Assembly: GCF_002351485.1 (NCBI RefSeq)
Contig: NZ_NWMW01000001.1
Coordinates: 186,001 to 250,000 of the forward strand
From: Sphingomonas spermidinifaciens
Lineage (GTDB): Bacteria; Pseudomonadota; Alphaproteobacteria; Sphingomonadales; Sphingomonadaceae
Length of the DNA stretch: 64,000 bases
Direction: 5' to 3'
The first letter of the stretch is position 1, and each line of letters starts with the position of its first letter. The notes below the pieces were generated by a model. That model did not search any database, was not told where the DNA came from, and was given only the letters and a program-made list of their open reading frames with translations. Shown here piece after piece: positions 17,718 to 21,002 of this stretch. The position numbers and the translations under genes are program-made.

Positions 17718-18950
17718 TTAGCCCGCCCGGCTCACGAACCGCTCGTGATCCTCCGGCGCCAATCGAACCTCATAATGCGCGCCGTCATCGGCCATCCAGT
17801 GGTCGAGCACTTCGCCATGCTGGTGCAGCCATGCCGCCCCCGCCCCGTCGGCCGGGTCGAGCGTCAGCATGAAGCGGCGGTGTCCCGCCGTCAGCCGCGC
17901 CGCTGCCGCCGCGATCAGCTCGTCCACCCCCTCCCCGGTCAGCGCGGAGATCGCCACGACGTCGGCGCGCGCCGCCGCATCGGCGATCACCCCGTCGCGG
18001 CGATCGTCCTCAAGCGCGTCGAGCTTGTTCCACGCCTCGATCCGCGGCGTTTCGGGATCGACGCCAATCTCGCCCAGCACCGCTTCGACGTCATGGCGCT
18101 GCGCCTCGCTGTCAGGGTGCGCGATGTCGCGGACGTGGATCAGGAGGTCGGCCGACACCACCTCCTCCAGCGTTGCCTTGAAGGCGGCGACCAGCTGCGT
18201 CGGCAGGTCGGAGACGAAGCCCACCGTGTCCGACAGGATCGCCTTGTCGATGCCCGGCAGCGAAATCTGACGCAGCGTCGGGTCGAGCGTCGCGAACAGC
18301 AGGTTTTCTGCCATCACCCCCGCCCCGGTCAGGCGGTTGAACAGCGTCGATTTGCCCGCATTGGTATAGCCGACCAGCGCCACGACCGGCCACGGCGCGC
18401 GCTGGCGCCGGTCGCGATGGAGCGTGCGCGTGCGGCTGACCTGATCGAGCTCACGGCGCAGGCGCGCCATGCGGTCGCGGATCATCCGCCGGTCGGCCTC
18501 GATCTGCGTCTCGCCGGGGCCGCCGAGGAAGCCGAAGCCGCCGCGTTGCCGCTCGAGGTGAGTCCAGCTGCGCACGAGGCGCGAGGACTGATAATCGAGA
18601 TGCGCGAGCTCGACCTGCAACCGCCCCTCGGCCGTCCGAGCGCGCTCGCCGAAAATTTCGAGGATCAGGCCGGTCCGGTCGATGACCTTGCAGCCGAGCC
18701 CGGTTTCGAGGTTCCGCTGCTGCACCGGCGAAAGCGCCGCGTCGAACACGGCCAGGCTCGCGCCCAGCGCCTCGACCCGCTCGTGCAGGCTCTCGACCTG
18801 GCCGCCACCGATCAGCGTCGCGGGTCGCGGTTGCCGGACGCGCAGGCCGACGCGCTCGACCACCTCGACACCGATCGCCGCGGCAAGGCCCGCCGTCTCC
18901 TCCAGTCGCGCGTCGACCTCGCGGCTCGCGCCGCCCTGGTCGGGCAACAC
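17718..18950 (-). CDS. hflX: GTPase HflX (ribosome rescue/heat-shock GTPase)
   Basis: The frame gives 410 residues from GTG 18950: N-terminal HflX domain with TLIGGGQVE and LSPVQQRNLE, coiled coil with GFLGGPGETQIEADRR, then the G domain with GYTNAGKSTLFNRLT (G1), DTVGFV (G3) and NKLD (G4). The frame is open further upstream, reading FDRDAEEFARGARAIVV before that GTG. This looks like the missing first strand, and a CTG at 19008-19010 overlaps the hfq stop (CTGA), so the true protein may have 430 residues. Last gene of the dusB-ntr-hfq cluster. It binds the 50S subunit and splits stalled ribosomes in the cytoplasm. Confidence 0.95.
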   Translation of the reverse strand: MLPDQGGASREVDARLEETAGLAAAIGVEVVERVGLRVRQPRPATLIGGGQVESLHERVEALGASLAVFDAALSPVQQRNLETGLGCKVIDRTGLILEIFGERARTAEGRLQVELAHLDYQSSRLVRSWTHLERQRGGFGFLGGPGETQIEADRRMIRDRMARLRRELDQVSRTRTLHRDRRQRAPWPVVALVGYTNAGKSTLFNRLTGAGVMAENLLFATLDPTLRQISLPGIDKAILSDTVGFVSDLPTQLVAAFKATLEEVVSADLLIHVRDIAHPDSEAQRHDVEAVLGEIGVDPETPRIEAWNKLDALEDDRRDGVIADAAARADVVAISALTGEGVDELIAAAAARLTAGHRRFMLTLDPADGAGAAWLHQHGEVLDHWMADDGAHYEVRLAPEDHERFVSRAG

Positions 18951-19006
18951 GACGATGGCGCGCGCGCCGCGGGCGAACTCCTCGGCGTCGCGATCGAATC
19001 CGGTAC

Positions 19007-19498
19007 TCAGGCTGCGTCCCCCTGTGCCTGTTCTTCGGCAAGATTCAGCGGGTTCGCGGGCTGGATCGTCGACACGGCGTGCTTGTAGACGAGCTGCGAC
19101 ATGCCGTCGCGCTGGAGCAGCATGCAGAACAGGTCGAACGCGGCGATCTGGCCCTGCAGCATCACGCCGTTGACGAGGAACATCGTCACATGCTCCTGCT
19201 GGCGGCGCACGGCGCTCAGGAAAATTTCCTGCAAGACCGGGTTCTTGCTGCCGTTATCCGACACGCTGTCAATGATGGGCGACAAGTCGACATTGCCCGT
19301 CGGCATGATCGTCGAGATCGCGTGCTTGTAGATCAGCTGCGACTGGCCGTCACGGCGCAGCAGGACCGAGAAATTGTCGAACCAGGTGACGATCCCCTGA
19401 AGCTTGACGCCCTTGACGAGGAACATCGTCACCGGCGTCTTCGCGCGGCGCAGGGCGTTGAGGAACTGGTCCTGGAGCGAGGTCTGCTTGTCGGCCAT
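19007..19498 (-). CDS. hfq: RNA chaperone Hfq with two tandem Sm domains
   Basis: 163 residues, about twice a normal Hfq core. The first Sm domain (about residues 6-68) reads [30 protein letters not shown] and YKHAISTI. The second (about 87-150) reads [30 protein letters not shown] and YKHAVSTI. Both keep the Sm1 Gly/Asp pattern and the YKH proximal-face motif; a linker with [10 protein letters not shown] joins them, and a short acidic tail follows. Six Sm units could be supplied by three chains, giving a pseudo-hexamer with two kinds of faces. It is encoded 127 bases after ntrX; small hairpins (19594-19612, 19614-19627) lie in that gap. It mediates sRNA-mRNA pairing. Confidence 0.95.
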
Positions 19499-19625: not shown

Positions 19626-21002
19626 CTAGTCCTCGCGCGTCTCGGTGATGCCGAGCAACTTCAGTTTGCGGTGCAGCGCCGAGCGTTCCATGCCGATGAA
19701 GCTCGCCGTTCGGCTGATATTGCCCGAGAAGCGGCGGATCTGGACGCGCAGATACTCCCGCTCGAACGTCTCGCGCGCTTCGCGCAGCGGCGTGCCCATG
19801 ATCGCGCTTGCGCCCAGCCCGCTCGCATCGCGGCCGGTCTGGAGCACCTCGGGGGGCAAGAGGTCGAGGTCGATGCGGCCGATCCGGTCGCCGGGCGCCA
19901 GGATCACCGTGCGCTCGACGACGTTGCGCAGCTGGCGGACGTTGCCCGGCCATTCATAGCTCTGCAGCGCGACCATCGCATCGGGTGCGACCTCGGGCGT
20001 GGGCACGCGGCGGTCGGTGGCATAGCGCGCGACGAAATGCTCGACGAGCGGCGGAATGTCCTCGCGGCGGTCGGCGATCGGCGGGATGACGACGGGGACG
20101 ACGTTGAGCCGGTAATAGAGATCCTCGCGGAACCGCCCCTCCCCGATCTCGACCATCAGGTCGCGGGCGGTGGCGGAGACGACGCGGACATCGACCTTGA
20201 CGACGCGCGTGCCGCCGACACGGGTAAAGCTCTGATCGGTCAGCACGCGCAGGATCCGGGCCTGCGTCGCGACCGGCATGTCGGCGATCTCGTCGAGGAA
20301 CAAAGTGCCGCCATGCGCCTGTTCGAGCAGGCCCGGCCGCACAAGGTCGCCCGCTTCCTCGACGCCGAACAGCTCCTCTTCGACGCGCTCGGGCGTCATT
20401 CGCGCGGCGCTCACGATGACGAAGGGCGCCGTCGCGCGCTGGCTCCAGGCGTGCAGCAGGCGGGCGGCGACTTCCTTGCCCACCCCCGGACCGCCCGAGA
20501 TCAGCACCCGGCTGCCCGTCTGCGCCACGCGTTTCAGCGTCGCGCGGACGGTGTTGATCGCGGCCGAGCTGCCGGTGAGGTCGGTGTCGCGCCCGGCACT
20601 TGCGCGCAGATCCTCGACCTCCTGACGCAGGCGCTCGGTCTCGGTCGCGCGCTTGACGAGGAGAAGCAGGCGCTCGGCTTCGAACGGCTTCTCGATGAAG
20701 TCCGACGCGCCGCGCCGGATCGCCGCCACCGCGGTGTCGAGATTGCCATGGCCCGAGATTACCAGCACCGGCAGCGACGGGTCGCGCCGCTTGATCTCCT
20801 CGAGCAGTTCGAGCCCGTCTAGGCGTGAGCCGTGCAGCCACACGTCGAGCAGGACAAGGCTCGGCCGGCGCGTCGCGATCGCTTCCAGCGCGGCGTCGCT
20901 GTCGCCCGCCGAGCGCGTGTCATAGCCTTCGTCCTCGAGCACGCCGGCCACCAGCTCGCGAATGTCGCGTTCGTCATCGACGACGAGAATGTCGAGGGTC
21001 AT
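19626..21002 (-). CDS. ntrX: Nitrogen/redox response regulator NtrX (AAA+ type)
   Basis: 458 residues: receiver domain with phospho-acceptor Asp53 ([10 protein letters not shown]) and Lys in [10 protein letters not shown]+ domain with a Walker A-like [17 protein letters not shown] and Walker [13 protein letters not shown]-terminal Fis-type helix-turn-helix ([22 protein letters not shown]). The GAFTGA loop needed to contact sigma-54 is absent: [15 protein letters not shown] stands in its place, as is known for NtrX. It therefore probably controls sigma-70 promoters. The ATG overlaps the ntrY stop (ATGA). Confidence 0.95.

Follow-up and report, generated by a model that had tools for sequence, protein, structure and literature searches.

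The tandem form of Hfq in sphingomonads

In ordinary Hfq any mutation affects all six subunits, so that it is hard to ask how many rims, pockets and tails a ring needs. A tandem hfq gene of Sphingomonas spermidinifaciens raises this question anew, since its product carries two Hfq Sm domains in one chain: what ring would such chains build, and have the two halves divided the RNA-binding work? The gene lies at positions 19007-19498, on the minus strand, of the 64,000-nucleotide stretch of contig NZ_NWMW01000001.1 that we analysed (hereafter the window), and is a single uninterrupted open reading frame of 163 amino acids with an ATG start and a TGA stop. The first Sm domain (D1) spans residues 7-66 (19301-19480, minus strand) and the second (D2) residues 88-147 (19058-19237, minus strand). 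Pfam PF17209 matches the protein in two stretches with a total of 189.4 bits (cut-off 27), each domain exceeding the cut-off by itself in the genome search (105.6 bits for D1 and 87.5 bits for D2), and TIGR02383 likewise matches in two stretches (181 bits, cut-off 61.7). A chance match is not an issue for this two-domain Hfq. A preliminary description had claimed two Sm folds in one polypeptide, each with a YKHA motif, and this is borne out: the motif is found at residues 57-60 of D1 and 138-141 of D2. The differences between the halves that were quoted there (44 residues in all) are also correct, and the halves are 64% identical across the Sm core. Between them lies a linker (residues 67-87; 19238-19300, minus strand) at the position taken by the acidic tail in one-domain members of the family, and the chain ends in an acidic C-terminal tail (residues 148-163; 19010-19057, minus strand) with a net charge of -3.

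The two PF17209 matches are the sole Hfq matches in the 3.6 Mb genome, and they share one frame with no stops between them. Downstream of hfq is hflX, encoding a GTPase (17718-19010, minus strand; Pfam GTP-bdg_N, GTP-bdg_M, MMR_HSR1 and HflX_C on 17721-18998), and upstream is the gene for a sigma-54 response regulator (19626-21002, minus strand; Pfam Response_reg, Sigma54_activat and HTH_8), which we take to be ntrX. All 79 loci of the locus tree described below have an HflX homologue near hfq, and therefore hfq stands at its usual place and is not an extra gene.

The two-domain form is already known and named. Zymomonas mobilis Hfq (ZMO0347) was described as a single chain with two Sm-like domains, a form common to six other Sphingomonadales species, and whether three chains suffice for a ring was raised as a question in the same paper (Yang et al. 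2010, PMC2877685); the remark in the preliminary description that duplicated Hfq had been noted in sphingomonads was thus correct. The available excerpts of that paper treat ZMO0347 without residue-level asymmetry, a tree or a family-wide survey. Novosphingobium aromaticivorans is listed elsewhere among species with two hfq copies (PMC3474761). The NCBIfam equivalog model NF010691 (PRK14091) matches residues 1-160 of the window protein with 285.7 bits (cut-off 270), aligned to positions 16-174 of 176; by this length the model appears to be, in effect, a curated family of tandem Hfq. We saw no relevant difference between the model and the window protein, and the model is silent on mechanism. 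What is added here is the division between the halves at the level of residues, the single origin of the form, and a divergent lineage within it.

Distribution of tandem Hfq

To describe how widely the form occurs, we surveyed samples of genomes from the order, class and phylum; these samples overlap and do not comprise all genomes, and family and genus totals are hand counts from tables. As a control, the profile search was run on 14 well-known genomes, 5 of which gave an Hfq match. The order survey covered 296 genomes, 213 from the window's family (Sphingomonadaceae, to judge from its named relatives, mostly Sphingomonas) and 83 from other families. Two Hfq matches were present in 202 of the 213 family genomes, and the suggestion that the form might be lineage-wide is thereby upheld for the sampled family; the other 11 had one match, in every case a normal short Hfq of 79-85 amino acids. 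Among the other families of the order, 77 of 83 genomes had an Hfq match, one of them (G001) with two, and six had none. Outside the family, the class survey gave matches in 314 of 380 genomes (two matches in 2 of these) and the phylum survey in 186 of 286 (two matches in 4).

None of the two-match genomes of the class and phylum surveys proved to be a tandem. In the class, G354 has separate genes on different contigs, and G601 has two partial matches at contig ends. In the phylum, the best matches of G696, G867, G893 and G898 lie in frames of 85-101 amino acids, too short for two domains; judged from these best matches, which were the ones among the rows listed, the genes are separate. Indeed, no one-frame tandem Hfq was found outside the family in the order, class or phylum samples. 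The second match of G001 is partial, on another contig (G001:C82:5520-5633) and in a 51-amino-acid frame, and is possibly contamination. Two assemblies (L080 and L091), with the titles Bacillus sp. 2B10 and Microvirga sp. SRT01, carry a Sphingomonas-type tandem hfq; probably they are mislabelled or contaminated.

The concern that a frameshift or an assembly join of two hfq genes had created the long frame can be set aside. We read the window and one locus from each of 60 further genomes, and both domains lie in one open frame, without stops, in 61 of 61; together with the full-length NF010691 match, this recurrence in many independent genomes leaves an artefact with a negligible probability, and we rejected it.

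Origin of the second domain

A FastTree phylogeny of HflX and NtrX (79 loci; 72 with both proteins and 7 with HflX only, 6 of these 7 being outgroups) placed the 61 tandem loci in one clade, with a modest SH-like support of 0.75. All 11 one-domain family members fell outside this clade, eight of them just outside it at a node with support of 1.0 and the other three deeper. An interim IQ-TREE tree, which carries no supports, likewise shows a pure tandem clade. So there was one fusion within the family, with no reversal among the sampled genomes.

A tree of single domains addresses the halves themselves. All 60 distinct D2 sequences form one clade (0.91), and another clade (0.88) unites all 48 distinct D1 sequences of our main set with 3 of the 11 D1 domains from genus g12, the divergent lineage described below; the other 8 D1 domains of g12 fall elsewhere. 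D1 and D2 were not found as sister clades in this tree, the best joint clade also including one-domain Hfqs, and the tree is therefore no proof that D2 derives from the hfq of the family itself. Met24, however, marks the family's own Hfqs: it is present in 45 of 50 D1 domains, 48 of 50 D2 domains and 10 of 11 one-domain Hfqs of the family, and in 0 of the 47 other Hfqs compared. D2 looks home-grown because of this shared residue, and its source was presumably the family's own gene, duplicated at home. Most likely, hfq was duplicated in frame once, long ago, where it natively stands between ntrX and hflX.

The halves differ in a conserved manner

To compare the halves we used a main set of 50 proteins, namely the window protein and those of 49 tandem loci outside g12, along with 58 one-domain controls (11 Hfqs of the family, and 47 of other families within the order and the class). 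Residues are numbered as in E. coli Hfq, whose sequence was checked to be identical to 3qhs, and residue roles were taken from the available parts of PMC11770335, PMC10628458 and PMC6561178. The proximal pocket hardly differs between the halves. In the window protein Q8, F42, K56 and H57 are present in D1 and D2 alike; across the main set Q8, Y55, K56 and H57 are found in 50 of 50 proteins in each half, and F42 in 50 of 50 D1 and 49 of 50 D2 domains. At position 41, through which other Hfqs contact the base with an amine group (PMC10628458), N occurs in all 50 D1 domains and L in 45 of 50 D2 domains. The monomer-interface residues F11, L12 and L26 (positions from PMC11770335) are kept in 50 of 50 proteins in both halves.

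On the distal face each half departs from the controls at a position of its own. Position 28 is K in all 50 D1 domains, including that of the window protein, and N in 58 of 58 controls; position 31 is M in all 50 D2 domains, again including that of the window protein, and K in 58 of 58 controls. Two subunits build the second adenine site, to which N28 is described as contributing a water-mediated contact (PMC10628458); therefore, the site would come in two kinds if the halves alternate in the ring.

At the rim, the summed charge at positions 16, 17 and 19 is +3 in all 50 D1 domains (R17, R18 and K20 by residue number in the window protein) and in all 58 controls, and in D2 it averages -0.12 (range -2 to +3 among the 50 main-set proteins). 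An arginine near the rim is kept in 50 of 50 D1 domains and is replaced by E or Q in 45 of 50 D2 domains. The window D2 is milder than most, keeping R16 and R17 with Q at 19 (rim +2). The 11 one-domain family members have an acidic tip, with -3 to -5 in the last ten residues; at the corresponding place the tandem proteins have a linker of 21-25 amino acids with a mean net charge of 0.06 (50 main-set proteins; the count starts where D1 ends and stops at E. coli position 8 of D2, giving 23 amino acids in the window protein), and the acidic tip occurs only after D2, the last ten residues carrying -3 or less in 47 of 50.

It had been proposed that the chains would form a ring with alternating surfaces which could split RNA classes between faces. 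The part of this that stands is that the halves differ in a directed and conserved way that fits such a ring, chiefly in the rim, in residues 28 and 31 of the distal face and in residue 41; the proximal pocket is almost alike in the two, and the loss of the D2 rim is only partial in the window protein. Judged by these substitutions, the pattern suggests that the halves have divided the work, although fixed differences between halves do not by themselves prove a ring of mixed halves.

Both halves are under purifying selection, and D2 evolves faster but is far from decay. Among 81 loci (the window and 80 named relatives), dN/dS was 0.030 for D1 and 0.128 for D2, calculated from the 2904 of 3240 pairs with dS of 0.1-1.5 in both halves, pairs that are not independent of one another. 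The mean root-to-tip distance in the single-domain tree was similarly 1.46 for D2 and 0.93 for D1. One might take this faster evolution, along with the lost rim charge and the L at position 41, as a sign that D2 serves mainly as structural filler or as carrier of the acidic tail and that D1 alone works on RNA. This is improbable in our estimation, given the near-invariance of the proximal pocket residues of D2 noted above and the pattern seen in g12.

A divergent lineage of tandem Hfq

Genus g12 (loci L176 and L184-L193) has fast-evolving tandem Hfqs in which both halves are very divergent. We read 11 of its 22 genomes in the order sample, mainly the weakest scorers, and the frequencies given here therefore lean to the extreme. 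In D1, N28K is present in 11 of 11, and Q replaces H57 in 3 of 11. In D2, the first helix lacks two residues in 8 of 11 and K31M is present in only 5 of 11. The linker is shortened to 16-17 amino acids in 8 of 11, and in 8 of 11 the tail is no longer clearly acidic. Throughout this divergence D2 keeps Q8, K56 and H57 in 11 of 11, even where D1 has lost H57, and this argues against D2 as mere filler.

A proposed ring of three chains

An AlphaFold2 model of one chain, built with 57 aligned tandem proteins, had a pLDDT of 88.6 and a pTM of 0.85. Each half has the same helix and five strands, and the linker has a pLDDT of about 72-78. A single aligned Hfq domain reaches a TM-score (TMq) of only about 0.40 on the tandem chain, and the pTM of 0.85 therefore indicates a confident mutual placement of the halves. 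From this model we infer that the contact between D1 and D2 within a chain probably corresponds to the contact between ring neighbours. Among the matches listed, the best-scoring solved chain by both sequence and fold is Caulobacter crescentus Hfq (6gwk; Z 9.8 and rmsd 0.9 over 71 residues against D1). The Foldseek and VIA-align matches listed are single Hfq chains that cover one domain, and are therefore no test of how the halves are placed. Similarly, none of the 35 matched PDB sequences, each matched in one stretch, is a tandem Hfq chain. No title or opening of an abstract among the literature matches listed, mainly freely readable papers and hence no proof of absence, reports biochemistry or structure of tandem Hfq, and the portions of two Zymomonas hfq papers from 2020 and 2022 that concern domain or hexamer terms make no mention of two Hfq domains (PMC7546472, PMC9797736).

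Taking sequence and model together, the likeliest arrangement is a ring formed by three chains with alternating halves. We consider it probable that tandem Hfq is the ordinary Hfq of the family, altered by duplication, and that it acts as a three-chain, six-domain ring in which D1 and D2 alternate and the RNA work is divided; the trimer, the alternation and the division of work are the deduced parts of this proposal. In such a ring, each of the six domains would retain its proximal uridine pocket, and U-rich sRNA ends would be held as usual. The basic rim that speeds annealing would be kept on the three D1 domains and, in most members, weakened or reversed on the D2 domains. The acidic tail that restrains the rim would follow D2 only, giving three tails for three rims, and second-adenine sites of two kinds, one with Asn28 and one with Lys28, would lie on the distal face.

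The tail of D2 may restrain the rim of a neighbouring domain, as the acidic tip does in Caulobacter Hfq, where it contacts the basic rim of the adjacent monomer (PMC6561178, from the available excerpts). This contact fits a tail after D2 acting on the rim of D1; crystal packing brings the Caulobacter tails against neighbouring hexamers as well (PMC6561178). The two proteins differ in that Caulobacter Hfq has one Sm domain per chain and forms a homohexamer with a rim and a tail on every subunit, whereas tandem Hfq has two domains per chain. A looser likeness is to the heteromeric Sm/Lsm rings of eukaryotes, which are also rings of non-identical Sm subunits (PMC2877685); there, however, the subunits are seven and are encoded by separate genes, whereas here they are two halves of one chain.

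Six chains might instead form two stacked homotypic rings, one of D1 and one of D2, tied together by the linkers. Homotypic rings are conceivable because the hydrophobic interface positions are kept in both halves, and a linker of 21-25 amino acids could bridge them. The defined arrangement of D1 and D2 in the AlphaFold2 model fits ring neighbours better, however, and stacked rings make it harder to explain why a tail-bearing half is paired with a rim-bearing half; we regard this arrangement as unlikely, and the filler role for D2 discussed above as no more probable. Far less likely still is that the chain is cut, or D2 started internally, to give ordinary one-domain subunits. Apart from the flexible linker nothing was found for this, a Met that could serve as a start occurs in the linkers of only 22 of 50 proteins (only Met starts were counted), and the two-domain arrangement has been retained in nearly all sampled family genomes.

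Returning to the alternating ring of three chains, two observations weigh against it: the window D2 rim is still +2, so that the rim split is weak there, and K31M is incomplete in g12. A stricter version holds that the fusion imposes an obligately three-fold ring, with rims and tails in a one-to-one ratio, sites distinguished by Asn28 or Lys28 and by K31 or M31, and part of the D2 rim charge transferred to the linker end. This fuller version is a possibility that we put forward tentatively.

At the end of the linker, the last ten residues carry a charge of +1 or more in 46 of 50 tandem proteins and are thus mostly basic; in the window (about 19235-19264) they are neutral while the D2 rim is +2. 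Linker-end charge and D2 rim charge are negatively correlated (-0.65, 50 tandem proteins). With independent contrasts the correlation in the main set was -0.38 (n=49, p=0.006), one of five trait pairs compared there, the others giving p=0.005 (a variant of the same test), 0.73, 0.058 and 0.84. Across all 61 proteins it was -0.32 (p=0.012), and the charge of the rest of D2 performs equally well (-0.33, p=0.010). For a shift of rim charge into the linker end, these correlations are suggestive only.

Use of the tandem form

Two reports speak for the tandem form working in the cell. Zymomonas hfq mutants show phenotypes (PMC2877685), and in the sphingomonad Sphingopyxis granuli TFA, the action of SuhB on thnR mRNA depends on Hfq (PMC6563040); by kinship, the Hfq of this species is presumably tandem, in which case it lends further support. 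Both statements rest on the accessible parts of these papers.

If the ring alternates, mutations in a single half would produce exactly three altered sites per ring. Sphingomonads, including the industrial Zymomonas, would then be a ready natural system for counting active sites, and the conserved asymmetry indicates which sites to probe first. Should the three-fold version hold, single faces could be mutated in half of the Hfq ring, in a natural system whose parts are genetically separable.

Start sites at the tandem loci

Two observations concern start codons at these loci. A seemingly long N-terminal extension rich in Pro, Ala and Lys precedes D1 at L136, L165 and others, where start codons are unsettled. 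In the window, the apparent start of hflX is a CTG at 19008-19010 (minus strand), which overlaps the hfq stop as CTGA, and the same arrangement is seen in the 98% identical relative L033; either hflX starts with CTG or its true start is a different one. Among the 68 of 141 tandem loci where a start motif was found for hflX, the start codons were TTG (34), ATG (25), GTG (5), CTG (2) and others (2).
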